From contig VGJY01000006.1 in NCBI GenBank assembly GCA_016867235.1, positions 1 to 56,222 of the forward strand: a DNA stretch of 56,222 bases. Direction: 5' to 3'. The notes under the pieces are model-generated. The model was not told the DNA's origin. It was given only the letters and a program-made list of their open reading frames with translations, and did no database searches. Of the stretch, positions 25,506 through 55,146 are shown in pieces. The position numbers were made by a program, and so were the translations under genes. Positions within the stretch are counted from its first letter, which is position 1, and each line of letters begins with the position of its first letter. This stretch comes from Candidatus Tanganyikabacteria bacterium (GTDB taxonomy: Bacteria; Cyanobacteriota; Sericytochromatia; S15B-MN24; VGJW01).

Positions 25506-26288
25506 CTAGTCGTTGCTGAAGGAGTCGACCAGGCCGCCGAGCACGCTGCCCTGCTCCTTCTGGCCGCCGGCCGCCATCATCAGGCGGTTGGCCAGTCGGG
25601 AGAGCGGCATGGACTGCAGCCAGACCCGGCCGGGCCCGCGCAGCACGGCGTTGAACAGGCCCTCGCCCGAGAACAGCGCCGACTTGATGCCGCGCTGGAG
25701 CTGGATGTCGAAGTCGATGGACGGCTCGTAGGCCACGACGCAGCCGGTGTCGACCCGGAGGGTCTCGCCCGGGGCCAGGGTGCGCTCGGCCAGGGCGCCG
25801 CCGGCGTGCAGGAACACCAGGCCGTCGCCTTCCAGCTTCTGCATGATGAACCCCTCGCCGCCGAAGAAGCCGGCCCCCAGGCGCTTCTGGAGGGCGATGC
25901 CCACGCTCACGCCCTTGGCGCCGGCCAGGAAAGAGTCCTTCTGGGCGATCAGCGTGCCGCCGACATCGGAGAGCTTGACCGGGATGATGCGGCCCGGGTG
26001 CGGCGCGGCGAACGCCACGCGGCGCTTGCCGCGGCCCTGGTTCAGGAAGACGGTGATGAATAGCGACTCGCCCATCAGCAGGCGCTTGCCGGCGCCCAGC
26101 AGCGCGCCCATGAACCCGCTCTGCTGCGCGGAGCCGTCGCCGAAGATGGTCTCCATGACGATGCCGTCTTCCATGAACATCATCGCGCCGGCCTCGGAGA
26201 CGGCCGCCTCGCCCGGGTCGAGTTCTATCTCGACGAACTGGACGTCTTCTCCGCGGATCTCGAAATCCACCTCGTGCATCTGGGACAT
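25506..26288 (-). CDS. AIM24/TIGR00266 family protein
   Basis: This 260-residue protein has the AIM24 beta-helix pattern: FVEIELDPGEAAVSEAGAMM, the IVMETIFGDG linker, LLGAGKRLLMGESLFITVFLNQG, FAAPHPGRIIPVKL, QKLEGDGLVFLHAGGALAER and LRVDTGCVVAYEPSIDFDIQ. The family is widespread; the yeast member acts in mitochondria and the bacterial role is unknown. AAGGAGGG five bases before ATG 26288 gives a strong start. It may share a transcript with the MscS gene upstream, 62 bases away. The closing LGGLVDSFSND is a short acidic tail. Confidence 0.88.
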   Translation of the reverse strand: MSQMHEVDFEIRGEDVQFVEIELDPGEAAVSEAGAMMFMEDGIVMETIFGDGSAQQSGFMGALLGAGKRLLMGESLFITVFLNQGRGKRRVAFAAPHPGRIIPVKLSDVGGTLIAQKDSFLAGAKGVSVGIALQKRLGAGFFGGEGFIMQKLEGDGLVFLHAGGALAERTLAPGETLRVDTGCVVAYEPSIDFDIQLQRGIKSALFSGEGLFNAVLRGPGRVWLQSMPLSRLANRLMMAAGGQKEQGSVLGGLVDSFSND

Positions 26289-26350
26289 GGCTTCCCTCCT
26301 TGTCTGGGTCGCCATCTTGCCATGCGGCGGACTCGCCAGCCAGCCGTCGC

Positions 26351-28009
26351 CTACACGTGGCTCGGTTCGGCCACCAGGTGGACGGTGCGCGTCGGGAAGG
26401 CCAGGCTCGCGCCGGCGGACTCGACCACGTCGAGGAAGGCCAGCAGCACTTCCTGCCGGATGACCGTGAATTCCGGCCACTCCACCTCGAACCACGCCTG
26501 GATCTCGACGATCAGCGCCGACTCGCCCAGGGTCTTGAGGCGTACCTGCACGTCGTCCTGCCAGGTCCTCGGGTGAGCGCGCACGGCGGCTTCCAGGCCG
26601 TCGAGGACCGCCCGAACCTGCTCGGCGCTGGTGCCGTAGGCGAGTCCGAGCTGGCATTGCAGGTGGGCGCGGTCGCGGGCGGCCACGCTCTCGATGCGCA
26701 TCTCGGCCAGCTTGCCGTTCGGCAGGCTGATGACGGTGCGGTCGGGCGTGCGGATGCGCGTCGAGCGCAGCCCCACGACCTCCACGGTGCCCTCGATGCC
26801 GTCCACCTTGACGAAGTCGCCCACCCGGAAAGGCTGGTCGATGCCCAGCGATATGGCGCCGAACATGTGCTCCACGGTCTTCTGCGACGCCAGGGCCAGG
26901 GCGAGTCCGCCGATCCCCAGGCCGGCCACGAGGCTCGTGACCGGGTAGCCGAGAAACGACAGGATGGCGATGACCCCCATGGCGAGCACGCCGACCTTGG
27001 TGACGCGCACGCCCAGCAGGATGAGCGAGCGGCTCGACGGGTTCTGCTTGGCCCATGGCCAGGTCTCCACGACCTTGCCGGCGGTGTCGGCCGCGACCAG
27101 CAACGCCCAGAAGAAGGCCAGGAAGAAGCCGGTGGAGAGCAGGCGGTAGACGAAGGCCTCGGCCGGCTCGTAGAGCGCGAGGACGGGCACCAGCATGTAC
27201 GCCGCGCCCAGCGCCCAGGCGGCATTGATGGGCCCGGCCAGACGCTCCAGCGCCTGATCGTCCCAGGGCGTCTCGGTGCGGGCGGCAACGCGCTTGAGGA
27301 CCGATCGCGACACCAGGCCGATCACCCAGCCGATGACCCAGGCCAGCAGCGCCATGACGGGCAGGGCGATCCACTGCCACCAGAGGAGTTCGCGCGGTCC
27401 CGGCCGCAGCAGCGGTTCCGGGAGGTGCTCGAGCGCCCAGAGGTTCTCCAGGCCCTGGTACCAGCCGTCGATGCGGCGCACCGTGCCGCTCGAGAAGGCC
27501 CAGCCGGCCTCGCTGCCGTAGCGGCGCACGAGGAAGACGCTGTCCTCGCGGCCGCGCCTGCCCGGGACCCGGCCGACGCGCTCCAGGCCGGCATCCAGCC
27601 CGTCGGTTCGGTCGCCGCCCGCCGCACCGGAAAGGGCCTCGGGATCCAGCCAGTCGTGGCGGTCGAGGACGGCCTTGAGGCGGCGAGCCAGCTCCGGGCC
27701 GCGCTTGCGCTGCGACCACGGCACCAGCAGGTAGTTGGCGGCCTTGTCGAACTCGCCGGCCCGCGTGTGATCCTGGAACCGGGTCATCGCGGCACGCGGC
27801 GAGTCGGGGTCGACCGTGTCTTCGGGTTCGGCTGCCGAGCCCGGGGCCGCGCTTGCGCTTCCCGCGGCGCTCGCGGCGGTGGCCGGCTTCAGGCCCGGCA
27901 ACGCCACCTGGGCGCCGGCCGGACCGGCCAGCAGGCAGGAGCCCGGGCCGCCGAAGAGGCCGATCAGCAGGGCGAACAGCGCCAGGCGCCGGGGGATCGT
28001 CACTCGCAT
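26351..28009 (-). CDS. MscS-family mechanosensitive channel
   Basis: The 552-residue protein has a signal peptide (RRLALFALLIGLFGGPGSC), a 170-residue soluble N-terminal domain, several spans at about 210-375, and the MscS core: YPVTSLVAGLGIGGLALALASQ (pore-lining TM3), TVEHMFGAISLGIDQPFRVGDFV, GIEGTVEVVGLRSTRIRTPDRT and a C-terminal beta/alpha domain. MscS channels open under membrane tension and release solutes on osmotic downshock. The long periplasmic front is like that of the larger MscS relatives. The start at ATG 28009 is chosen because the signal peptide begins there; a longer frame is open. The last 60 residues should form the cytosolic vestibule. Confidence 0.87.
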   Translation of the reverse strand: MRVTIPRRLALFALLIGLFGGPGSCLLAGPAGAQVALPGLKPATAASAAGSASAAPGSAAEPEDTVDPDSPRAAMTRFQDHTRAGEFDKAANYLLVPWSQRKRGPELARRLKAVLDRHDWLDPEALSGAAGGDRTDGLDAGLERVGRVPGRRGREDSVFLVRRYGSEAGWAFSSGTVRRIDGWYQGLENLWALEHLPEPLLRPGPRELLWWQWIALPVMALLAWVIGWVIGLVSRSVLKRVAARTETPWDDQALERLAGPINAAWALGAAYMLVPVLALYEPAEAFVYRLLSTGFFLAFFWALLVAADTAGKVVETWPWAKQNPSSRSLILLGVRVTKVGVLAMGVIAILSFLGYPVTSLVAGLGIGGLALALASQKTVEHMFGAISLGIDQPFRVGDFVKVDGIEGTVEVVGLRSTRIRTPDRTVISLPNGKLAEMRIESVAARDRAHLQCQLGLAYGTSAEQVRAVLDGLEAAVRAHPRTWQDDVQVRLKTLGESALIVEIQAWFEVEWPEFTVIRQEVLLAFLDVVESAGASLAFPTRTVHLVAEPSHV

Positions 28010-28049
28010 GGCATCCCAATATGCCCCGGCACGGCTTATGCTCACAGTG

Positions 28050-28870
28050 ATGGCGCCACAAGTCTCGGTCGTGCTCCCGGCCTACGATGCGGCGGCGACC
28101 GTCGAGGCGGCGGTCCGGTCGGTCCTGGATCAATCGTGGCGAGACTTCGAGCTGATCTGCGTCGACGACGGGTCGCGGGACGGCACCGCCTGGGCGTGGC
28201 GTCATGCCTGGTGGAGCACCGGTCCGCACCGGCGGCGCTTGGCTACGATCTCTACGTCGCGTGGCTCAACGACCTGGTGACTCCCGAGGCGATCTCCCTG
28301 GCGCGGTTCGTGGAAGCGCCGCTCGCCCACCCCACGGTCATGTTTCGGCGGGAACTTCCCGAACGGCACGGCTCGTACCGGGACGGGCCGTTTCCCGAGG
28401 ATTTCGAACTCTGGCTGCGCTGGCTCGAGGCCGGCGTGCGCTTCGGGAAGGTGCCCGAGGTGCTGTACGTCTGGAACGATCCCCCGGAGCGCCTCTCGCG
28501 CACGGACCCCCGCTATGCCGTGGACGCGTTCCACCGGGTCAAGGCCGCGTACCTGGCGCGGTGGCTGGCCGCGCACAATCCCCACCATCCCGGGGTCGTC
28601 GTCTGGGGCGCCGGCAAGACCTCGCGGCGGCGCGCCGCGCACCTCGAGGCGCACGGTTGCCGCATCGACGCCTACCTCGACATCGACCCGCGCAAGGTGA
28701 ACCGCACGCTTTCGGGCCGGCCCGTCCGGCACGCCGAGACCCTCCCGCGCGCGGCGGGCGGCGAGTTCGTCCTGTCCTACGTGGGCACGCGGGGCGCCCG
28801 GCCCTTCATCCGATCAGTGCTGGAGGGGCGGGGCCGCGTCGAGGGCCGGGATTTCCTGTTCGCGTCCTGA
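28050..28870 (+). pseudogene. Family 2 glycosyltransferase, internally deleted and frameshifted
   Basis: The first part (from ATG 28050, phase 1) reads MAPQVSVVLPAYDAAATVEAAV, then LDQSWRDFELICVDDGSRDGTA, a normal GT2 start with the DDGS nucleotide-binding motif. At about 28190-28230 the phase changes. The second part reads VAWLNDLVTPEAISLARFVE, PTVMFRRE, YRDGPFPEDFELWLRWLEAG (EDFELW is the GT2 acceptor motif), ending with a second Rossmann-like GVVVWGAGKTSRRRA domain. About 70 residues between, with the second catalytic Asp motif (DADD), are missing. An inactive remnant is the likely reading; a sequencing or assembly error would not explain the lost domain. Confidence 0.78.
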
Positions 28871-44760: not shown

Positions 44761-45540
44761 GTGAATTCGTTCGAGGATGCCCTCCGAGCCGAACTCGCCG
44801 CCGCGCCGCCCGCGCCTGATGGCCCGGAGCCCGACCCGGCGCCCCTGATGGCTGCCCTCCGCGAGGTCGCGGTCGCCCTGCCCATGGTGGACAACCTCGG
44901 CCGGACCGGCGATGCGACCGACCTCTACCCCTGGCTGGATCGGCTGGCGGCCGGGGCCCGGACGCTATATCCCGAGATCCCCTGCGGCGCGGGCTGCAGC
45001 GCGTGCTGCCACTACCCGGTGTCGCTCTACACCATCGCCGAGGCCGAGTGGCGGCCGATGGCCGACCTGGTGGCGCGGAAATGGCCCCGCGAGCGGCTCG
45101 AGGCGTTCGTGAGGCGGTTCTGGGGTTCGCACGGCCCCTACCTCTGGCGCCTGCGCGTGCTGAACTTCCTGATGGAGATCCCCCTGCCGGTGGTGGCGCG
45201 GCGCGAAGCGATCCCCTTGGCCTGCCCGTTCCTCGAGGACGATAGGTGCGCGGTCTATGCGGCCCGGCCGGCCATCGCCCGGGCGTTCGGGCTGTTCTCG
45301 TTCAAGCATTTCTTCCTGCGCAAGCCGGTGCCGTACGGTTGCGACCTGACGCGGGAACGCCTGGATCCGGTGCTCGCGATCAAGGATCGGCCCGGCCTGC
45401 CGAGCTTCAACCCGTTCTTCGGGGTGCGCGGGGCCCTGGCCCGCGGCCCCCGGAGGTTCATCCCCCTGTGGGTCGCCCGCGAGTGGCCGCGTTCGTGGCT
45501 GCGCGAGGCGACTTCGGGACGCGACGGAATGTCCAGCTAG
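44761..45540 (+). CDS. YkgJ-family cysteine-cluster protein
   Basis: This 259-residue protein has a first cluster CGAGCSACC (about residues 75-83), then a second part, ACPFLEDDRCAVYAARPAIARAFGLFS, with two more Cys. This is the Cx2-3Cx2C...CPFL...C..Y..RP pattern of the YkgJ (PF03692) zinc- or iron-chelating family. The function is unknown; some members act with flagellin methylation or metal handling. The start is GTG at 44761, at the end of the repeat region; no ribosome site is clear, so the message may be leaderless. Its stop overlaps the convergent PIN toxin gene by 4 bases. Confidence 0.82.
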   Translation: MNSFEDALRAELAAAPPAPDGPEPDPAPLMAALREVAVALPMVDNLGRTGDATDLYPWLDRLAAGARTLYPEIPCGAGCSACCHYPVSLYTIAEAEWRPMADLVARKWPRERLEAFVRRFWGSHGPYLWRLRVLNFLMEIPLPVVARREAIPLACPFLEDDRCAVYAARPAIARAFGLFSFKHFFLRKPVPYGCDLTRERLDPVLAIKDRPGLPSFNPFFGVRGALARGPRRFIPLWVAREWPRSWLREATSGRDGMSS

Positions 45541-45941
45541 GCGCTCGGCGCTCCGAGGAATTCGGCGGGCGAAACGACGCGGATTCCGCAACGCTCCGAA
45601 TCGGGGAAGTGCTTGAGGTTCCCGGTGATCAGCGCTTCTGCCTGCGCTTCGGCGGCGACTTCCAGGAACATCCGGTCGGCTGGATCGGGCAACCGGCAGG
45701 CGAGCGCCGCAGCCAGGACCCGCACTCCCTCTGCTTCGAGGAAATCGAGTAGCTCTGCGATCGCGGCGGGATCGAAGCCGAAGCGCTCGCGCTTCGCGAC
45801 CTCGCGGTACTCGGCGAGGATGCGGTCGTCGTAGGCCGCCCGCAGGGAGCCGCGCACGAGCAGGTCGACGATGCGCCCGGGAGCGCCGTGGGGATTGAGC
45901 AGGCCGGAGATCAGGACATTCGTGTCGACGACGACGATCAT
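45537..45941 (-). CDS. PIN-domain toxin of a type II toxin-antitoxin pair
   Basis: This 134-residue protein has the PIN ribonuclease motifs: VVVDTNVLISGLL (Asp), EYREVAKRE (Glu), LPDPADRMFLEVA (Asp-x-x-Asp) and ALITGNLKHF (Asp/Asn position). The TNVLISG...H.APG start is the subfamily annotated as TA system toxin, PIN family. It probably cuts RNA. It follows the Phd-like antitoxin with a 46-base gap, so the pair are not overlapped as in vapBC. All key residues are present, so unlike the vapC at 19965 it looks intact. Confidence 0.88.
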   Translation of the reverse strand: MIVVVDTNVLISGLLNPHGAPGRIVDLLVRGSLRAAYDDRILAEYREVAKRERFGFDPAAIAELLDFLEAEGVRVLAAALACRLPDPADRMFLEVAAEAQAEALITGNLKHFPDSERCGIRVVSPAEFLGAPSA

Positions 45942-45987
45942 GAGTTGTGCGTCACTCCCGGACGACCGTCCTCGCCGAGCCCCGGGG

Positions 45988-46272
45988 TTACGTGCGCGCC
46001 CGCCGGGCCGAGCGGATCTCCGCCTCGATCGCCTCGTCGCCGAGGCGGTCGGCGCCGGACGCCTGGGCCGCCTTCCGGATCTTCCCTAGCGCCACCTCGG
46101 CCCGGGTCTGCCGCAGCGCGCGCAGCGTGTCCTCCAGGTCGTCGGCCGACACGCCGGTCAGGATCGCGATGGGCTTCCCGTTGGACGTCACGACGACCTG
46201 GCCCTCTCGTTCGAGCAACTGCCAGATCTCCCCGGGCCGGATCCGGAACTCCCGCGCCGCGACGAACTTCAT
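45988..46272 (-). CDS. Phd/YefM-type antitoxin
   Basis: The 94-residue protein has a Phd-like fold: FVAAREFRIRPGEIWQLLEREGQVVVTSNGKPIAIL, followed by an acidic, helical C-terminal (SADDLEDTLRALRQTRAEVALGKI, DEAIEAEIRSAR) that should wrap the PIN toxin next to it. It binds DNA and represses the pair. No ribosome site precedes ATG 46272. Upstream on the minus strand two close sequences, GTAGACAAT and GTAGGACAAT, lie in tandem and may be its operator. Confidence 0.85.
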   Translation of the reverse strand: MKFVAAREFRIRPGEIWQLLEREGQVVVTSNGKPIAILTGVSADDLEDTLRALRQTRAEVALGKIRKAAQASGADRLGDEAIEAEIRSARRART

Positions 46273-47102: not shown

Positions 47103-48884
47103 TCAGTCCCGGGCCGGCTCGGGGAGCCGGTCGGGCACGACGGCCGGCCGCGCTAGGCGCACGACGCGGCATTGCAGGTCGGGATCGCCGTCCTCGGCGT
47201 AGATCGCCTCCACCAGCGGTCGCTGCAGTTCGGCCACGCGCGATCGCACGACCTTGAGCGAGGGCGTCAGTTCGCCGGCCTCGATGCTCAGCTCGTGCGG
47301 CACCACCGAGAAGGCGCGCACGCGCAGGTACCCGGGTTCTAGCGTGGCGTTGCGCTCGTCGACCTCGGTGGCGAACAGGCTGGCCACGGCCGGTTCGGCC
47401 AGGAGGTCGGCGAGGGGCAAGTCGGCAAGCCCGTGCTCGCGCGCCCAGGCGGTGAGGTTGCGGACGTTGGGGAAGACCAGCGCGCCCACGTAGTCGTGGC
47501 CGGCGCCCAGGACCACGGCCTGCTCGATGAAGCGGCTCGTGGCCGTCAACGCCGCCTCGACCTGCGCCGAGGGCACTTTCTCGCCGTTACTGAGCTTGAA
47601 CACGCCGTCCAGGCGGCAGATGATGCGCAAGCCGCCCTCGGTGACCTCGCCCAGATCGCCGGTGCGGAGCCAGCCGTCCTCGCCCAGGACGCGTGCCGTG
47701 CGCTCGGGATCGTGGAAGTAGCCGCGCATGACGTTGGGGCCGCGCACGTGGATCTCGCGTTCCTCGGCGATGCGCACCTCCACGCCCGGGAGCGGCATGC
47801 CCACGATGCCCGGGACGCGCACGCCGTCAGGCGACGTGAGGGTGACGCAGGGCGACGTCTCGGTCAGGCCCCAGCCCTCCAGCACGGGGATGCCCTTCCG
47901 GGCGAAGTAGTCCGAGCAGTCCTTTGGGAGGGGCGCGGCGGCCGTGAAGACGAACTTCAGGCCGGGATGGAAGACGGTCCCTTCCACCTCCGGATTCAGC
48001 CGGCACTCGGTGACCAGGGCCTGGTAGACCTTGGGCACGCTGAAGAAGTGCGTCGGCATGATCTCGCGCCAGTTGGCGACCAGGCGGGGGATGTCCCGGC
48101 CTTCGCTATCGTCCAGGGACAGCGTGGCGCCCTGCGCCAGGGCGGTGAACCGCTCGAACAGCCCGCCGAAGGAGTGGTGCCACGGCAGGTACGACAGGAA
48201 GACGTCGCCCGGCGCGATGCGCCACAGCGCCTCCAGGGCCTTCTGCTGCGAAAGGATGTTGCCGTGCACCAGGACCACCCCCTTGGGCTGGCCCGTGGTG
48301 CCGGAGGTGTACATCACCAGGCACGGTTCCTGGGGCCCCAGGCCGCGTACCGCTTCGTCGAACGCGGGGTCGACCGGATGCGCCAGCACCTCGTCGAACG
48401 TCAGGGCGCCGGTGCCGCCGGCATTCGCGCCGGCAGCCGGGCCCGAGAGCACGAGGGCGTCCAGTAACCGGGGGGCGCGCGCCTCGCGGGCGCGTTCTAG
48501 CTGCAACTCGTCGCCGACCAGGAGCATGCGGGCGCCCGAGTGTTCGAGCAGGTAGGCGATCTGATCGGGGCCGTAGCGGGCGAAGATCGGCACCGACAGG
48601 GCGCCGCAGGACATGATCGCCAGCTCCCAGACGAGCATGTCGGCCGAGTTGCGCGAGAGCGTGGCAACCCGGTCGCCCTTGCCCACGCCGGCGGAGAGCA
48701 GCCAGCTTCCCGCCCGCCGGATGCGGTCGTGCAGGTCAGGCCAGGCGAGCGGCACGAACGCCCCCGCGGCGCCACGCTCCTGGTAGGCCGTCCGGTCGGG
48801 CCAGCGCCGGGCGCGGTCGGCGAGCATGGCGCCGAGCGACGGTTCCATCGGTCCCAGCGGGAGGGGCGAGCGCAGGTGGGTCAT
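47103..48884 (-). CDS. AMP-forming acyl-CoA synthetase, sixth gene of the dehydratase operon
   Basis: The 593-residue protein is an adenylate-forming ligase of the long-chain type: CLVMYTSGTTGQPKGVVLVH (P-loop), HHSFGGLFERFTAL, LEGWGLTETSPC, GWLRTGDLGEV, and the FKLSNGEKVPSAQVEAAL hinge with a conserved Lys region. It converts a carboxylic acid plus ATP and CoA to the acyl-CoA. In this operon the substrate is probably a 2-hydroxy or related acid feeding the dehydratase. Its ATG overlaps the activator stop as ATGA, and GAGGG is upstream. Confidence 0.9.
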   Translation of the reverse strand: MTHLRSPLPLGPMEPSLGAMLADRARRWPDRTAYQERGAAGAFVPLAWPDLHDRIRRAGSWLLSAGVGKGDRVATLSRNSADMLVWELAIMSCGALSVPIFARYGPDQIAYLLEHSGARMLLVGDELQLERAREARAPRLLDALVLSGPAAGANAGGTGALTFDEVLAHPVDPAFDEAVRGLGPQEPCLVMYTSGTTGQPKGVVLVHGNILSQQKALEALWRIAPGDVFLSYLPWHHSFGGLFERFTALAQGATLSLDDSEGRDIPRLVANWREIMPTHFFSVPKVYQALVTECRLNPEVEGTVFHPGLKFVFTAAAPLPKDCSDYFARKGIPVLEGWGLTETSPCVTLTSPDGVRVPGIVGMPLPGVEVRIAEEREIHVRGPNVMRGYFHDPERTARVLGEDGWLRTGDLGEVTEGGLRIICRLDGVFKLSNGEKVPSAQVEAALTATSRFIEQAVVLGAGHDYVGALVFPNVRNLTAWAREHGLADLPLADLLAEPAVASLFATEVDERNATLEPGYLRVRAFSVVPHELSIEAGELTPSLKVVRSRVAELQRPLVEAIYAEDGDPDLQCRVVRLARPAVVPDRLPEPARD

Positions 48885-49654
48885 GGGGTTCCCTCTCGCG
48901 CCAGGAGCGCGGCTCCCAGGGCGCTGATGTGCTGCGTGTGGGGCAGAACCTGGACTTCCACGTGGAGCAGGCTCCGCACCGCGTCGACCAGGAGGGCGTG
49001 GTGGGCGACCACCCCGCCCGACAGGGCCAGCAGGGTGCCGCGGGCGCCGATGTCGGCGACCCGTTGCGCCACCGACTGGTAGACGCCGCGGGCGATTTCG
49101 GGCCCGCCGAAGCCCTTGCGCAGCAGGTCGAGGACCTCGGTCGCGGCGAAGACCGAGCAGAACGACGAGAGCGGCGCCGCGCGGTCGGCCTTCGCAGCCA
49201 GGGCGTTGAGATCGGCCACCGGCAGGCCCAGGCGGAGGCACACCATCTCGATGAACGCGCCGGTGCCCGCGGCGCACTTGCGGTTGAGCCGGTAGTCCAC
49301 GCGGCGCCCGGCTTCGTCCAGGATGACGACCTTGCTGTCCTGCCCGCCGATGTCCACGACCGTCATGGCCCGGGGCAGCAGGGCGTGCGCGCCGCGCGCC
49401 AGGCACATGATCTCGCTGCGGGTCAGGCCGTGGCCGGGCACGTCGTCTCGCCCGTAGCCCGTGCTCGCCATGCGGGAGACGTCGGTCATGCGGACGCCGG
49501 CCTCGGCGCAGGCGGCTTGCAGCGCCCGGATGCCGGCACCGGCGAGATCAAGCCCGGTGGGCTCCAGGCCCAGGCCCAGCGGCGCGTCGCCGTGCCCGAC
49601 CACGACGGCCTTGGCCCAGGTGCTGCCGACGTCGACCCCCGCGTACACCACCAA
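48881..49654 (-). CDS. ATP-dependent activator of 2-hydroxyacyl-CoA dehydratase (BcrA/HgdC family)
   Basis: The 257-residue ASKHA-fold protein begins MVVYAGVDVGSTWAKAVVV (phosphate 1), has VVDIGGQDSKVVILDE (phosphate 2), and the two single cysteines that bind the shared [4Fe-4S] cluster of a homodimer, Cys127 (RKCAAGTGAFIE) and Cys166 (SSFCSVFAATEV), then LSGGVVAHHALL. It uses ATP to transfer one low-potential electron to the dehydratase, starting ketyl-radical chemistry. It lies 3 bases after the dehydratase subunit and overlaps the ligase gene. An O2-sensitive enzyme in the middle of an otherwise aerobic-looking gene set is unusual. Confidence 0.93.
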   Translation of the reverse strand: MVVYAGVDVGSTWAKAVVVGHGDAPLGLGLEPTGLDLAGAGIRALQAACAEAGVRMTDVSRMASTGYGRDDVPGHGLTRSEIMCLARGAHALLPRAMTVVDIGGQDSKVVILDEAGRRVDYRLNRKCAAGTGAFIEMVCLRLGLPVADLNALAAKADRAAPLSSFCSVFAATEVLDLLRKGFGGPEIARGVYQSVAQRVADIGARGTLLALSGGVVAHHALLVDAVRSLLHVEVQVLPHTQHISALGAALLAREGTP

Positions 49655-49657
49655 GGG

Positions 49658-50908
49658 TCAGTTCCGTAACGAGGTCACGCCCGGGTCGAGCCCGGGGTTT
49701 GCGCCGACCCGATCTTCGAGTTGCTCGAGGAAGACCTCGATGCGGGTGCGCGACTCTTCGAGCGAGAAGCAGCGCAGGTCGTTGAGGTCGCCCTCCAGGA
49801 TGAGCGCGGGCAAATCCTGGTGCTCCGCCAGGCGGCGCGGCAGGCCGAAGCGGGTGTTGGTGTTGTGCGGGCAGGTGCGCGAATCGTGGAAGATGACGCC
49901 GTCGGCGCCGAACTCCCGGCAAAGGCGGCTGATGTAGCCCTCCTTGAAGCGTTCGGACCGGCAGATGAAGATCTCGAGGTAGGTGCGGGCCATCGCCTCC
50001 CACGGATCGACGGCGGTGTCGAACTCGAGGATCCAGGAGTTGCAGTAGGTCGAGACGACCAGGGCCGTGCCGAGGCCGGCAAACAGGTCCGACAGCGCCC
50101 GCAGCCGCCCCCAGATGGGCATGCCTTCCCAGTAGACGCGGAAGCGCTCCTTCGGCAGGGCGCCGGCGCGACGCTGGGCCAGGTCGGTGAGTTCGGCCAG
50201 CAGCAGGCGGTAGTACGCCACCGCGTCCTCGGTGCCGCGTTGCACCACGATCGGCCCCATGTGCACCACGTGGTCGAAGAAGGTCCAGGGCGTCGGGCGG
50301 GCGGCGGCCTGCCGCAGGCACTCCCGCCACAGAAGCGACGCCTCGCGGGTCAGGGCGATGCGCCGCGCCAGCTCGTCCAGATCCAGGCCGCGGGGCGCCA
50401 GGGGCGCGAGATCGGCCGCCAGTTGCCGCAATTGCGCGGCCACGCCGCCCACGACCGCCGGGTGCAGCGCTTCGAGTTCGGTCGGGGAGTGGATCCCGAA
50501 GACCGGCACGCCAAGCTCTCGTCCGTACCACTCGAACCAGGCCTTGACCTCGCGGCACTGGTTGGTGTTGTAGACGAGCACGGCCGGGGGCGGCACCTTC
50601 TCGAGGCCGTAGGCCCTGGTCAGCGGCGTCACGCCCTCGAGGAACGCGCCGATGTCGCTGGTCAGGTACGAGCAGATGTCCGGCGAGTATCCCCGGGCGT
50701 GGGCCAGCGGCATCGTGGCCCCGGCCATCCGCGACGTGCCCAGGATCGCGCCGTGGTTCTCCGGGAAATAGACCCTGAAACCCAGCGCCAGCAGCAGTTC
50801 GGCCGGCCCCACGCTGGTGCACCAGGCCACGGGCGCGCCCGACTCGGCCAGATCGCGGAAGTACCGCGTCATGCTCGCCTTGAGGGGTTCGGCCGCGGCA
50901 AGGGTCAT
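49658..50908 (-). CDS. 2-hydroxyacyl-CoA dehydratase/benzoyl-CoA reductase subunit (HgdB/BcrC family)
   Basis: This 416-residue HgdB-family subunit has several cysteines suited to an iron-sulfur cluster: PVAWCTSVGPAELLLALGF, VYNTNQCREVKAWFEW, ALVVSTYCNSWILEFD and DSRTCPHNTNTRF. The family splits water from 2-hydroxyacyl-CoA, or reduces benzoyl-CoA, after one-electron activation. Known enzymes need two such subunits, A and B. Only one is found here, so the second is elsewhere in the genome, or this forms a homodimer. It sits 3 bases from both neighbours. Confidence 0.88.
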   Translation of the reverse strand: MTLAAAEPLKASMTRYFRDLAESGAPVAWCTSVGPAELLLALGFRVYFPENHGAILGTSRMAGATMPLAHARGYSPDICSYLTSDIGAFLEGVTPLTRAYGLEKVPPPAVLVYNTNQCREVKAWFEWYGRELGVPVFGIHSPTELEALHPAVVGGVAAQLRQLAADLAPLAPRGLDLDELARRIALTREASLLWRECLRQAAARPTPWTFFDHVVHMGPIVVQRGTEDAVAYYRLLLAELTDLAQRRAGALPKERFRVYWEGMPIWGRLRALSDLFAGLGTALVVSTYCNSWILEFDTAVDPWEAMARTYLEIFICRSERFKEGYISRLCREFGADGVIFHDSRTCPHNTNTRFGLPRRLAEHQDLPALILEGDLNDLRCFSLEESRTRIEVFLEQLEDRVGANPGLDPGVTSLRN

Positions 50909-50911
50909 GCG

Positions 50912-52906
50912 CTAGTTCCCCTGGAACACCGGGCGTTCGCGGCCGACCGACTTGAGTCCCACCAGGGCGTCGTGGGTCGAGAAGATGCTCGTGACGCCCC
51001 GCAGTTCGTTGGCGTAGGCCTGCTCGTCGGGCAGCGAGGCGTTCTGCTCGACCAGGTCGGCGGCCACGCGCACCGCGATGGGCGCCTTCTTCCGCACCGC
51101 CGCCAGGAGAGACGCCGCCTCGGAACTGGGCGGCACGAAACCCTCCCGCAGGAGCGCGGGCGGGTTGCCGGCAAACAGTTCGCCGACCTGCTCGAACTCG
51201 GCCGCGGCGTGGCTGGCGGGCTGATTTGGCGTGGCCGCGACGCGCGCCAGGGTCGCCTCCAGGTCGAGCGGATCGACCAGGATGTCCACCAGGCCGAGAT
51301 CGTGGGCTTCCTCGGCCCTGAACACCTTGCCGGTCAGGAGCGCGTACTTGGCCAGCGCCGTGCCCATGCGGCGCGCCGTGCGGAAGGTGCCGCCCAGCGC
51401 GGGATAGATGCCGATGCCGGTCTCCGGGAAGCCGAAGGACGCCTTGGGCGTCGCGACGACGCGATGCGCGGTCAGGGCGAGTTCGGCGCCGCCTCCTAAC
51501 GCCAGGCCGTGGACGGCCGCGGTGACGGGCTTGGGGCTGCGGGCGATCGCCCCGAAGAACGCCTGGGCCTTGCCCGTGAAATCCTCGAGGTCGCTCAGCC
51601 TGCCCTGCTCGATGGCCTTGACGAAGAAGCGCACGTCCGCGCCCGCCACGAAAGCCTTGCCGGCGCCGCGGAGCACGATGCCCTTGACGGCGGGATCGGC
51701 CAGGGCGGCCTGGAAGGCGCTTTCCAGCTGCGTGAGCACCTCCGCGTCGAGGGCGTTGAGGGCTTCGGGCCGGTTGATGATCAGGTGCGCGATGCCGTCC
51801 CGCACCTCGGTGTCCACCAGGCGGAAGTCCCAGGGCTGGACGCGCGTGGCCAGCGCAAGCGGCATCGCGATCCGCCCGGAAAGCTTCCGGACGGCGTCGG
51901 CAGCCGGCAGCAGCTCGCGCCGGTTCATCAGCTCGAACGGTCCGAAACGCCAGCGCAAGCCGATCTTGGCGCCACGGTCGGTGTCCTCCAGCGTTGCTAC
52001 CTGCTCGTCGAGGATCTGCCCCGCCACGGCCCAGACCACCCCCAGGAGCCGATCGGCGATGACGGTGGCATCCCCTGCCGGCTCGCCCCCGAGTTCCCAG
52101 AGGGCGCCGGCCTTGAACTGGCGTTCCAGCGCGGCGGTCGGCAGGTAGAACTCCCCGAGCCGCTCACCGAGGCTCGCGGCGGCGTGGTAGGCGATGGGCA
52201 CTCCCGTGACGTTCATCAGCTCGAACGGGCCCATGCCGATGGCGACCGCCTCCCTGGCGGCCTTCTCGATGGCCGGAATGTTGCCCAGTCCTTCCTCGAG
52301 CAGGCGCGTGGCCTCGTTGAGCCACGGCACGAAGAAGCGGTTGACGCAGAAGCCGGGGGCGTCCTTGCAGTTGATGGGCGTCTTGCCGCTTGCGGCCATG
52401 AGCTCCCAGGCGGCGCGGACCTTCGCCGGGTCGGACTCCGGGCCCGCGATCACCTCCACGAGGCGGTTCTTCACGGGGTGGAAGAAGAAGTGCAGGCCGA
52501 CGACGCGGTCGCGGTGCGCCAGAGGCGCGGCCACATCGGCCACCAGGAACGACGAGGTATTGGTGGCCAGGATGGTGTCGCGGGCGCAAAGGCCTTCGAG
52601 GCGCGCGAAGAGGTCGCGCTTGACTTGCAGGTCCTCGAAAACCGCCTCGACGACCAGGTTGCAGCCGGCCAGGCCAGCCAGGTCGGTGGTGGGGGTGAGG
52701 CGATCCAGCGTGGCGGCGCGGGCCTCGGGCGTGACGGCCTTGCGGGCCACGCCTTCGTCGAGCATGTCGCGGATGCGCTGCATCCCGCGCTGCAACGGCT
52801 CGTCGGCAAGATCGGCCAGGACCACCGGGTAACCTTCCATGGCGAACTTCTGCGCGATGCCGCTACCCATGGTCCCCGCCCCGACGATGCCTATTTGCCA
52901 AGCCAC
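50912..52906 (-). CDS. 3-hydroxyacyl-CoA dehydrogenase/enoyl-CoA hydratase fusion
   Basis: This 664-residue enzyme has its two activities in the order dehydrogenase then hydratase, the reverse of FadB/FadJ. Residues 1-300 hold the NAD fold GIVGAGTMGSG, the catalytic HFFFHPVKNRLVEVI and the RFFVPWLNEA dimer part, and a second 3HCDH C-domain follows. From about 390 comes crotonase: AFVAGADVRF, ALGGGAELALTAHR and FPETGIGIYPALGGTF, with both hydratase Glu residues. It would add water to an enoyl-CoA and oxidise it to 3-oxoacyl-CoA, the middle of beta-oxidation. It fits between dehydratase and thiolase. Confidence 0.92.
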   Translation of the reverse strand: MAWQIGIVGAGTMGSGIAQKFAMEGYPVVLADLADEPLQRGMQRIRDMLDEGVARKAVTPEARAATLDRLTPTTDLAGLAGCNLVVEAVFEDLQVKRDLFARLEGLCARDTILATNTSSFLVADVAAPLAHRDRVVGLHFFFHPVKNRLVEVIAGPESDPAKVRAAWELMAASGKTPINCKDAPGFCVNRFFVPWLNEATRLLEEGLGNIPAIEKAAREAVAIGMGPFELMNVTGVPIAYHAAASLGERLGEFYLPTAALERQFKAGALWELGGEPAGDATVIADRLLGVVWAVAGQILDEQVATLEDTDRGAKIGLRWRFGPFELMNRRELLPAADAVRKLSGRIAMPLALATRVQPWDFRLVDTEVRDGIAHLIINRPEALNALDAEVLTQLESAFQAALADPAVKGIVLRGAGKAFVAGADVRFFVKAIEQGRLSDLEDFTGKAQAFFGAIARSPKPVTAAVHGLALGGGAELALTAHRVVATPKASFGFPETGIGIYPALGGTFRTARRMGTALAKYALLTGKVFRAEEAHDLGLVDILVDPLDLEATLARVAATPNQPASHAAAEFEQVGELFAGNPPALLREGFVPPSSEAASLLAAVRKKAPIAVRVAADLVEQNASLPDEQAYANELRGVTSIFSTHDALVGLKSVGRERPVFQGN

Positions 52907-52910
52907 TTGT

Positions 52911-54179
52911 CTAATCCCTCTCTAGAAGCAGTGCGATGCCCTGCCCGCCGCCGATGCAGGCGGACGCGACGGCGCGCCGCTTGCCGCGGCGGGCCAGTTC
53001 GAGCAGGGCGGTGACGGCCAGGCGCGTACCGGTCGCCGCCAGGGGATGGCCCAGGGCGATGGCGCCGCCGTTGACGTTGAGGACTTCCGGGTCGAGGTCG
53101 AGTTCGCGCGTCACGGCCAGCGCCTGAGCGCCGAAGGCTTCGTTGATCTCGAAGAGGTCCACGTCGTCCAGCCCGAGCCCGGTCTCGGCCAGCAGGGCCC
53201 GGATGGCCGGCGCGGGGCCGATGCCCATGACATCGGGGTCCACGCCCACCGTGCAGGAGGCGCTGAGGCGGCCGAGCCCGGCGATGCCGCGCTCCTGGGC
53301 ATAGGCCGCGTCGCACAGGACGGCGGCGGCCGCCCCGTCCACGATGCCGCTCGAGTTTCCCGCCGTCTGCACCCCGTCGAAGACCGGCGGCAGCTTCGCC
53401 AGGCCGGCGGCGTCGGTCGGCCGCAGGTGCTCGTCGCGGTCGAAGCGATCGACCTTGCGCGGAAGCGCCACCTTGCGCGGTTGCAGCCCGCCGCCGTTGC
53501 AGGCGCCGGCCACCACCGGAGCGATTTCGTCGGCGATGCGACCCGCCTCCCACGCGTCCCAGCCACGCTGATGGCTGCGGAAGGCGAACGCGTCCACGTC
53601 CTCGCGCCCGAGGCCGTAGCGCTTCGCGAGATTCTCGGCCGTCTGGCCCATGCTGGCGCCGCAGGCGGGATCCAGCAATTCGGCCGTGAGCGTGTCCACG
53701 AAGTCCACCCGGCCCATCTCGACGCCGAGGCGGGCGCCGTAGGAGGCGATGGGGTTGCGGGTCATGCTCTCGGTGCCGCCGCACAGCGCGACCCGGGCTT
53801 TCCCCAGCGCCAGTTGCTCGGCGCCGTAGGCCAGCACTTCCAGGCCGCTGCCGCAGAGGCGGTTGACCAGGACCGCGGGCACCTCGCGGGGCACGCCGGC
53901 ATAGAGCGCCACGTGGCGCGGCAGGTAGAAGGCGTCCGGCCCGCTCTGGGCCACGTTGGCGAAGACGACCTGGTCCACGTCGGGGCCCGCCAGGCCCGCG
54001 GCATCCAGCGCCGCTCTGGCCGCCACGATCCCCAGATCGGTGGGCGACACCCGGGCGAGGGTCCCCATGAACTTGCCGAAGGCCGTGCGCTTGCCGGCGG
54101 CCACGACGACGCCCTCGTAGCGGGCGCCGAACCCCCCGCCCGGCAGGCGGAACCCCTTGACGGTCGCGGATGGCGCCAT
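52911..54179 (-). CDS. Thiolase (acetyl-CoA C-acetyltransferase family)
   Basis: This 422-residue thiolase has an intact active site: PAVLVNRLCGSGLEVLAYG (nucleophile Cys109), EINEAFGAQALA (NEAF), GGAIALGHPLAATGTR (catalytic His), ASACIGGGQGIALLLE (second Cys). It has an extra 20-residue N-terminus before VVVAAGKRTAFGKF. It cleaves a 3-oxoacyl-CoA with CoA to acetyl-CoA, or condenses in reverse. It lies 4 bases before the dehydrogenase fusion in the operon and would be the last step of the proposed route. Confidence 0.93.
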   Translation of the reverse strand: MAPSATVKGFRLPGGGFGARYEGVVVAAGKRTAFGKFMGTLARVSPTDLGIVAARAALDAAGLAGPDVDQVVFANVAQSGPDAFYLPRHVALYAGVPREVPAVLVNRLCGSGLEVLAYGAEQLALGKARVALCGGTESMTRNPIASYGARLGVEMGRVDFVDTLTAELLDPACGASMGQTAENLAKRYGLGREDVDAFAFRSHQRGWDAWEAGRIADEIAPVVAGACNGGGLQPRKVALPRKVDRFDRDEHLRPTDAAGLAKLPPVFDGVQTAGNSSGIVDGAAAAVLCDAAYAQERGIAGLGRLSASCTVGVDPDVMGIGPAPAIRALLAETGLGLDDVDLFEINEAFGAQALAVTRELDLDPEVLNVNGGAIALGHPLAATGTRLAVTALLELARRGKRRAVASACIGGGQGIALLLERD

Positions 54180-54198
54180 TGCGAGACTCTCCCCTGGT

Positions 54199-55146
54199 TT
54201 ACGCGACGCCGGCCTTGGCCGGCAGGTAACGGTGCTCGAGGGTGCGCACCAGCCGCGTGAACATGTCGTTCATCGGGGTGGCGACGCCCACCAGGTCGCC
54301 GTAGTAGGCGATGCGGCCGTTGAGGAAGGCGATTTCGGTCTCGCGCCGCGCCTCGACGTCCATCAGCATGCTGGGCTTGTGCGGCCCGCCTCGCTCCAGG
54401 TACGAGATGCAGTACTCGAAGAAGCCGGGGCCGAAGTCGTAGCCCACGCGGGCGGCGACCTTGATGGATTCCGAGAGCAGCGAATCGACGATGCTGCGCG
54501 TGTCGGGCGTCTCCATGACCTCGCGCATGGTGAGGCCCGTGATGGCCGAGACCGGGCTCAACGAGGAGTTGAGGATGGTCTTTTCCCAGACGTAGCGCTT
54601 GACGTCGCGCTGCGACGTGGTCTGCAGGCCTCCGCCATTGAGCATGCCGGCCAGTTCCTGCGCGTCCTCGCAATCCTCCTTGCGGCAGGCGCATCCGATG
54701 TGGTTTGGCGGGTGGAAGAAGCTGGCGTACGCCCGGCCGGGCTCCAGGACCTTGCCCGCGAAGTTGACCACGAAGCGCAGGATCTTGTTGTGGTTGAACG
54801 CGTGCGAGAGGATCTCCTCGGTGTCCAGGCCGTTTTGCATGCTTACCAGGACCGTCCGGGGCGTCACCACCTTGGCGAGTTCGGGCAGCATCGACCGCAG
54901 CATGCACGCCTTGACGGAGAGGATCAGGTATTCCGGCTCGACGGCGGCCAGGTCGGACGCCCGGGGGAAGCCGCCGTGCACCTGCTCGTCGGCCTGCAGC
55001 GCGCCCTCGACATGGACGCCGCCTTCGGTCAGCGCGCGCAACTGCTCCTGCCAGATGTCGGCCAGATAGACTTCCTGGCCTGCCCTGGCAAGGTGCGCCG
55101 CAGCAATGGAGCCCACCGGGCCGGCACCCACGATTCCAATGCGCAT
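54199..55146 (-). CDS. Ketopantoate reductase-family enzyme (PanE/ApbA-like), first gene of the operon
   Basis: The 315-residue protein has RIGIVGAGPVGSIAAAHL (NADPH fold GxGxxG), LILSVKAC (a conserved Lys), SMQNGLDTEEIL, and YVWEKTILNSSLSPVSAITGL (catalytic Lys and Asn of ketopantoate reductases). The ATG at 55146 is preceded by GAGG at 5 bases. True PanE makes pantoate for CoA, but here it heads a dehydratase operon, so a 2-oxo acid to 2-hydroxy acid reductase is more likely. The cysteine-rich GCACRKEDCED in the middle is unusual for PanE. Confidence 0.85.
   Translation of the reverse strand: MRIGIVGAGPVGSIAAAHLARAGQEVYLADIWQEQLRALTEGGVHVEGALQADEQVHGGFPRASDLAAVEPEYLILSVKACMLRSMLPELAKVVTPRTVLVSMQNGLDTEEILSHAFNHNKILRFVVNFAGKVLEPGRAYASFFHPPNHIGCACRKEDCEDAQELAGMLNGGGLQTTSQRDVKRYVWEKTILNSSLSPVSAITGLTMREVMETPDTRSIVDSLLSESIKVAARVGYDFGPGFFEYCISYLERGGPHKPSMLMDVEARRETEIAFLNGRIAYYGDLVGVATPMNDMFTRLVRTLEHRYLPAKAGVA

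Follow-up and report, generated by a model that had tools for sequence, protein, structure and literature searches.

A six-gene operon with a single HGD-D gene in a Candidatus Tanganyikabacteria genome and a proposed anaerobic route from aromatic 2-oxo acids to benzoyl-CoA

Introduction

The window analysed here is the entire contig C6 of a Candidatus Tanganyikabacteria genome (56,222 bases; the genome comprises 6.12 Mb in 514 contigs) and carries at 47103-55146, on the minus strand, six genes for a PanE/ApbA-family reductase, a thiolase, a dehydrogenase/hydratase fusion, a protein of the HGD-D family, an ATP-dependent activator and an AMP-forming acyl-CoA ligase. The locus raises the question of how a single HGD-D gene can serve in a pathway together with a PanE-type reductase and beta-oxidation genes, and which substrate would be handled by it. 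An earlier note on this DNA had named the six genes with their families, order and strand, all of which were recovered from the open reading frames (ORFs) and the Pfam and NCBIfam scores, and it had read them as a chain leading from a 2-oxo acid through a radical dehydratase into beta-oxidation. We regard it as slightly better than an even call that the operon encodes a peripheral anaerobic route, by which a 2-oxo acid, with phenylpyruvate or 4-hydroxyphenylpyruvate as the likeliest candidates, would be passed into beta-oxidation to yield (4-hydroxy)benzoyl-CoA.

The genes show operon-like spacing; in the order from PanE to the ligase, the intergenic gaps are 19, 4, 3 and 3 bases, followed by an overlap of 4 bases:

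54199-55146, minus strand: PanE/ApbA-family reductase, 315 amino acids (TIGR00745 174.2 bits, cut-off 141.4)
52911-54179, minus strand: thiolase, BktB-like, 422 amino acids (TIGR01930 387.7 bits, cut-off 240.6)
50912-52906, minus strand: 3-hydroxyacyl-CoA dehydrogenase/enoyl-CoA hydratase fusion, 664 amino acids, GTG start (3HCDH_N, 3HCDH and ECH above the Pfam cut-offs)
49658-50908, minus strand: single-subunit HGD-D protein, 416 amino acids, proposed 2-hydroxyacyl-CoA dehydratase (PF06050 197.5 bits, cut-off 28.4)
48881-49654, minus strand: ATP-dependent activator, 257 amino acids, TTG start (TIGR00241 183.2 bits, cut-off 125.4)
47103-48884, minus strand: AMP-forming acyl-CoA ligase, 593 amino acids (PF00501 258 bits, cut-off 29.9)

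The best NCBIfam match of the thiolase is PRK09051 BktB, with a score below its cut-off, the dehydrogenase part of the fusion protein lies N-terminal of the hydratase part, which is the reverse of the FadB order, and the nearest solved structures of the activator are the HGD, HAD and BCR activators. In the proposed chain PanE would reduce an arylpyruvate to the (R)-2-hydroxy acid (aryllactate), which the ligase would convert to aryllactyl-CoA. The activator would use ATP and inject one electron into the dehydratase, a one-subunit iron-sulphur enzyme presumably acting as homodimer, and this would convert aryllactyl-CoA to cinnamoyl- or 4-coumaroyl-CoA with loss of water; in HAD-family chemistry it is the cluster that removes the 2-hydroxyl group. 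The fusion protein would then hydrate and oxidise the 2-enoyl-CoA, and the thiolase would cleave the product to acetyl-CoA and (4-hydroxy)benzoyl-CoA, which would enter a benzoyl-CoA pathway encoded elsewhere in the genome.

Relatives of the HGD-D gene and the question of a second subunit

When 84,980 species genomes were scanned with the HGD-D protein as query, at least 501 relatives were returned among 591 candidate stretches; the best 80 of them were kept, which are 49-68% identical to the window protein. Their hosts are Acidobacteriota, Desulfobacterales and other deltaproteobacteria, Aminicenantes, Chloroflexi, Zixibacteria, Planctomycetota, Lokiarchaeota, Thermoplasmatota and others, and the dehydratase-gene family spans bacteria and archaea. 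Within the phylum of the window the HGD-D protein was matched in one of 386 genomes, namely the own one. Comparison of the operon in relatives, which the earlier note had proposed as a check, returned the same six genes in identical order and strand in L022 and L023, two metagenome-assembled genomes of Acidobacteriota. Each of their operon genes is 59-72% identical to its counterpart in the window, copies of the AMP ligase at 59-60% identity occur in these two only among the 80 loci, and the three HGD-D proteins form one clade (support 100/99).

The earlier note took a dehydratase subunit gene to be missing from the operon. An HGD-D profile search found a second HGD-D ORF in two of the 80 loci and none in the other 78, where locus extents differ and 34 of the 80 reach 8 kb or more on each side; the two are L048, with two further HGD-D genes on the opposite strand, and L061, with a partial HGD-D ORF at the edge, likewise on the opposite strand. 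For 43 of the 80 loci the search was extended to the complete genome, and six of these genomes contain exactly one HGD-D match, including the single-contig genome G392 (4.1 Mb); the family therefore seems to need no heterologous partner subunit, at least in those six. On these counts no subunit is missing. A partner encoded elsewhere in the own genome was considered and rejected, since its other HGD-D genes are only BzdN and BzdO on contig C21 and the family is single-gene. It is proposed that the HGD-D protein acts as homodimer.

Predicted fold and iron-sulphur site

The HGD-D protein was modelled with a pLDDT of 86.6 and a pTM of 0.88. The best Foldseek matches of the model are chains C and A of 3o3m (HadB), with TM scores of 0.89 (query) and 0.92 (target), followed by MbdO, BzdO and DCCP, with the beta subunits ranking last. 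The family profile scores HadB with 242.2, MbdO with 162.5, BzdO with 112.8 and DCCP with 35.2 bits. By its predicted model, the protein is of the alpha-subunit fold, nearest to HadB.

Five cysteines (Cys30, 79, 118, 289 and 346) are invariant in all 81 members, of which HadB keeps three, and Cys380 is found in 74 of the 81. Cys79, 118 and 346 align with Cys84, 117 and 346 of HadB and with Cys95, 128 and 380 of BzdO, where the aligned cysteines are given as cluster ligands and Glu65 and Ser44 as acid/base surroundings (PMC11971306). Ser32 and Glu50, at the positions of BzdO Ser44 and Glu65, are invariant in 81/81. Cys289 aligns with a distal double-cubane ligand of the own BzdN, Cys30 is three alignment columns off another distal BzdN ligand, and the third distal column is a gap. 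With five invariant cysteines the sequence does not provide the six-cysteine ligand set of the double cubane ([8Fe-9S]), and a double cubane is not claimed from the sequence, given the empty third distal column and the shifted register of Cys30.

These features bear on a rival explanation, according to which the HGD-D protein and its activator form a single-subunit ring reductase, similar to benzoyl-CoA reductase and acting on benzoyl-CoA or a related aryl-CoA. We hold this to be unlikely, although the tree does not separate the family from BcrB. The HGD-D protein scores far below the BcrB equivalog (90.3 of 486.6 bits) and the BzdO equivalog (42.4 of 448.6 bits), and it also stays below the NCBIfam cut-offs of HadB (160.3 of 750 bits) and DCCP (42.4 of 350). 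The position of BzdO His131 is occupied by Val121 in 81/81 members, which argues against a ring reductase, although MbdO also lacks that histidine.

Conserved genomic company

The genes found on the same strand as the HGD-D gene in the 80 loci are those of an activator (62), PanE (25), ligase B (34), an ADP-forming acyl-CoA synthetase (34), thiolase B (27), a hydratase/dehydrogenase (18), a GlcD-type flavoprotein (17) that carries cysteine-rich domains, AFOR (11), IorA (9) and IorB (7). As controls, 40 matched stretches of 19.2 kb from six single-contig genomes of the set were compared with the 34 full-flank loci, either strand being counted. PanE was present in 15 loci and in no control, the activator in 29 versus 0, ligase B in 19 versus 1, thiolase B in 15 versus 1, the hydratase/dehydrogenase and the acyl-CoA synthetase in 14 versus 1 each, AFOR in 9 versus 0, IorA in 6 versus 0, IorB in 5 versus 1 and the GlcD-type flavoprotein in 12 versus 2, the last count being higher here as fewer models competed and both strands were counted. 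Thiolase A (2 versus 0) and ligase A (1 versus 2) were not significant. Comparative genomics, including the PanE count, thus lends support to the chain from a 2-oxo acid into beta-oxidation that the earlier note had drawn, in which the single reactions are those that the protein families would be expected to catalyse.

According to another explanation the operon serves ordinary beta-oxidation of phenylpropanoids or fatty acids; the HGD-D protein would then be a bystander and PanE a genuine ketopantoate reductase. The ligase, the hydratase/dehydrogenase and the thiolase would be enough for cinnamate- or coumarate-type substrates, but the link of PanE, activator and HGD-D is kept across phyla and is absent from the controls, and we give this explanation scarcely any credence. 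The operon PanE reaches no PanE equivalog cut-off in NCBIfam. In the 26 PanE copies adjoining the family, Lys189 (26/26), Asn193 (24/26), Ser259 (24/26) and Glu271 (25/26) are conserved, which we take to be the catalytic residues of PanE/ApbA, while the position of Ser197 holds serine in 17/26 and asparagine in 8/26 copies; in true ketopantoate reductases a second asparagine would be expected there. It is proposed that the operon PanE reduces a 2-oxo acid to the (R)-2-hydroxy acid, as its family membership would allow.

PanE (25/80) and the GlcD-type flavoprotein (17/80) never occur together on the HGD-D strand. Both are plausible enzymes of 2-hydroxy and 2-oxo acids and therefore look like mutual replacements. 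The hypergeometric value of this exclusion is 6.7e-4 with kinship ignored, and the tree needs just four label changes, so that the exclusion rests on few events and was rejected as strong statistics. The GlcD-type flavoproteins and the ADP-forming acyl-CoA synthetases, together with IorAB near the HGD-D gene in some loci, would also suit a dehydratase working in the direction of hydration, by which an enoyl-CoA is converted to a 2-hydroxyacyl-CoA, a 2-hydroxy acid and finally a 2-oxo acid, as an alpha-oxidation feeding IorAB. However, the operon of the window includes the hydratase/dehydrogenase and the thiolase, and the own genome holds no IOR-alpha above the cut-off, which leaves this direction with little credence.

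Link to benzoyl-CoA metabolism

Oah-, Had- or Hcr-like genes (at least 40% identity) were found in 12 of the 34 loci and in none of the 40 controls, where two of the 12, L022 and L097, were themselves a source of queries. Behind the operon of L022, on the same strand and running on into L117, lie genes for an Oah-like hydrolase, an SDR, a thiolase, a hydratase, MobA-like and YqeB proteins and a Had-like dehydrogenase. Further on lie the flavin and Mo parts of an enzyme like 4-hydroxybenzoyl-CoA reductase (TIGR03194 979.5 bits, cut-off 994.6), and then BcrC (462.9, cut-off 421.2), BcrB (651.8, cut-off 486.6) and a BcrA-like protein (485.8, cut-off 578). L097 encodes a Had protein above its cut-off. 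In the own genome, contig C21 encodes BzdN (534.6 of 453.8), BzdO (718.5 of 448.6) and BzdQ (479.6 of 380.2), all above the cut-off, and an Hcr-alpha-like protein (868.4 of 994.6 bits) that is 47-50% identical to that of L117; the Oah-like and Had-like proteins of the own genome are 65% and 67% identical to their L117 counterparts. Benzoyl-CoA or 4-hydroxybenzoyl-CoA as products of thiolysis would fit this Bzd/Hcr/Oah/Had set, which points to phenylpyruvate or 4-hydroxyphenylpyruvate as the substrate. In agreement with this substrate, IorA (above the cut-off, indolepyruvate oxidoreductase) and a PaaK-like ligase adjoin the HGD-D gene in L082.

Had-like genes (57%) were seen within a few kb of the dehydratase gene, on the opposite strand, in the Lokiarchaeota loci L061 and L081, and Oah-like genes 57-61% identical to the own-genome copies lie likewise on the opposite strand at this distance in L045, L049, L061 and L081.

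The same chain may serve branched-chain or other aliphatic 2-oxo acids, such as 2-oxoisocaproate, with isobutyryl-CoA and acetyl-CoA as products. HadB is the closest solved structure, L097 has an ABC transporter similar to LivG/LivH, and Lactococcus PanE is named, in the title of a work cited in PMC7583248, as sole reducer of branched-chain 2-keto acids. Benzoyl-CoA genes near 12/34 loci and the physical continuity of the operon with Hcr and Bcr genes in L022/L117 speak against aliphatic substrates, which we judge rather unlikely.

The benzoyl-CoA-pathway genes near HGD-D in several phyla also count in favour of the ring reductase, as do Aminicenantes loci that lack PanE but combine HGD-D and the activator with an ADP-forming synthetase, a symporter and genes similar to Had and hydratase, and the genome G392, where the one HGD-D gene has a Had gene above the cut-off about 40 kb away. 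On the other side, AFOR proteins are present in the single-HGD-D genomes, G392 included, their NCBIfam match being one general AFOR model below its cut-off that is not specific for class II. The own genome and that of L022 already hold a canonical class I reductase, and a ring reductase would leave PanE and the flavoprotein without explanation. The main argument against it is that PanE and beta-oxidation are unconnected if there is no dehydratase between them.

Several observations weigh against the route from arylpyruvates to (4-hydroxy)benzoyl-CoA. The complete six-gene order is restricted to two of the 80 relatives, neither PanE nor the GlcD-type flavoprotein lies on the HGD-D strand of the fetched stretch in 38 of the 81 members, and in several Aminicenantes loci HGD-D and activator stand beside ring-degradation genes without PanE or AMP ligase. 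The own genome has the operon and the bzd cluster on separate contigs, its Had-, Oah- and Hcr-like proteins are all below their equivalog cut-offs, and its best IOR-alpha score is 71 of 650.9 bits. The family profile scores the BcrB of L117 with 213.6 bits, nearly the value of HadB, and the tree does not decide whether the family goes with BcrB or with the HAD alpha subunits. All the reactions, as well as the substrate, direction and homodimer, are what we infer for a family in which no member has a known activity.

Comparison with known systems

The earlier note had seen a likeness to clostridial 2-hydroxyisocaproate steps. This holds for the fold, and in a comparison with HadB only the system shares with HadBC and HadI of Clostridia the alpha-subunit fold, the three cluster cysteines, the Ser/Glu pair and one activator gene; the context, in contrast, speaks for aromatic and benzoyl-CoA metabolism and not for leucine fermentation. 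FldBC with FldI of Clostridia, a phenyllactyl-CoA dehydratase, is counted with it among the nearest known systems. Unlike HadBC, the operon has no beta subunit and the family has two extra invariant cysteines, an AMP ligase replaces the CoA-transferase, and the PanE-type reductase and beta-oxidation genes are part of the operon. With DCCP (6eno) the HGD-D protein shares a single gene with one activator and a cysteine, Cys289, in a BzdN cysteine column, but the two are distant (35.2 bits, TM 0.76) and one distal ligand column is without cysteine. The class I reductases BcrCBAD and BzdNOPQ belong to the same superfamily, have an ATP-driven activator and are found in the genomic company of the family, whereas the operon has one HGD-D gene and one ATPase gene where these have two and two.

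No description of the HGD-D family or of the six-gene operon was found in the literature searched on dehydratases, double-cubane proteins, PanE and benzoyl-CoA, and no literature was found that joins 2-hydroxyacyl-CoA dehydratase with Lokiarchaeota or with indolepyruvate ferredoxin oxidoreductase. The remark of the earlier note that it knew no described pathway with this gene set has to be narrowed, as the phenylpyruvate chain is already in print as a hypothesis. For the benzene degrader BzS1 a conversion of 2-oxo-3-phenylpropanoate via a 2-hydroxyacyl-CoA and cinnamoyl-CoA to benzoyl-CoA was put forward, with the dehydratase left unassigned (PMC13416013, July 2026); the article gives BzS1_13720 as a singular gene, 30% identical to FldB. 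As presented there, that chain is chemically nearly identical to the one proposed here, but it involves a different flavoprotein cluster, while the window holds a conserved gene set with a candidate dehydratase.

Two-subunit HGD-D pairs with an activator beside genes of CoA metabolism were observed on plasmids of Sphingopyxis, Rhodococcus ruber and Azoarcus (L018, L019 and L021). Two of these three genera are aerobic.

Host genome and further genes of the window

Of the 59 genomes sampled from the phylum, 19 have psbA above the cut-off; none of these is among the 18 from the own class, the own genome included, which marks this class as non-photosynthetic. BzdO was found in one of 20 genomes searched, the own one, and in none of the 19 relatives. 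In this non-photosynthetic member of the Cyanobacteriota, contig C21 (L005 6623-17437; L193) carries a bzd-type cluster for a class I benzoyl-CoA reductase, accompanied by Oah-, Had- and Hcr-like genes. The presence of the bzd cluster and the operon in such a genome suggests acquisition by transfer. Contamination of the assembly was considered and rejected, since the operon is nearer in composition to the own contigs (tetranucleotide correlation 0.983 with the rest of the contig, 0.987 with the bzd contig) than to the Acidobacteriota relatives (0.868 and 0.925); the correlation with G013 was obtained on 3.8 kb that are quite different in composition, and is of no use on this point.

Directly downstream of the operon, at 45537-46272 on the minus strand, lie a gene for a PIN-domain protein (PF13470) and, upstream of it, a small gene that resembles a Phd-type antitoxin by eye, with no Pfam match. 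Also on the minus strand are the genes for an 843-amino-acid protein with an NrS-1 polymerase HBD domain (PF22763; 1278-3809), perhaps of phage or plasmid origin, and for a 907-amino-acid protein with a C-terminal AIM24 domain (25506-28229), the domain being 60% identical in a genome of the same class, which likewise speaks against contamination. A short tandem repeat closes the contig (56150-56222; a repeating peptide in open frames) and is the likely cause of the assembly break.

Possible physiological and evolutionary meaning

In a wider form, which we put forward tentatively and with less than even confidence, the family may consist of one-subunit 2-hydroxyacyl-CoA dehydratases shared across domains, with a five-cysteine site that perhaps holds an unusual cluster, and may open an anaerobic route, so far undescribed, that leads from aromatic 2-oxo acids via aryllactyl-CoA and cinnamoyl- or coumaroyl-CoA to benzoyl-CoA. 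Its users would be sulphate reducers, Aminicenantes, Chloroflexi, Zixibacteria, Lokiarchaeota and a non-photosynthetic member of the Cyanobacteriota, and in evolution the enzymes may stand between double-cubane proteins and heterodimeric dehydratases. If this is true, it would provide a simpler, single-gene radical dehydratase, whose one subunit type would have to serve both for electron injection and for catalysis, and a candidate for the dehydratase step left unassigned in the benzene-degradation proposal of 2026. It would also account for the oxidation of aromatic amino-acid skeletons via benzoyl-CoA in many uncultured anaerobes, including archaea.

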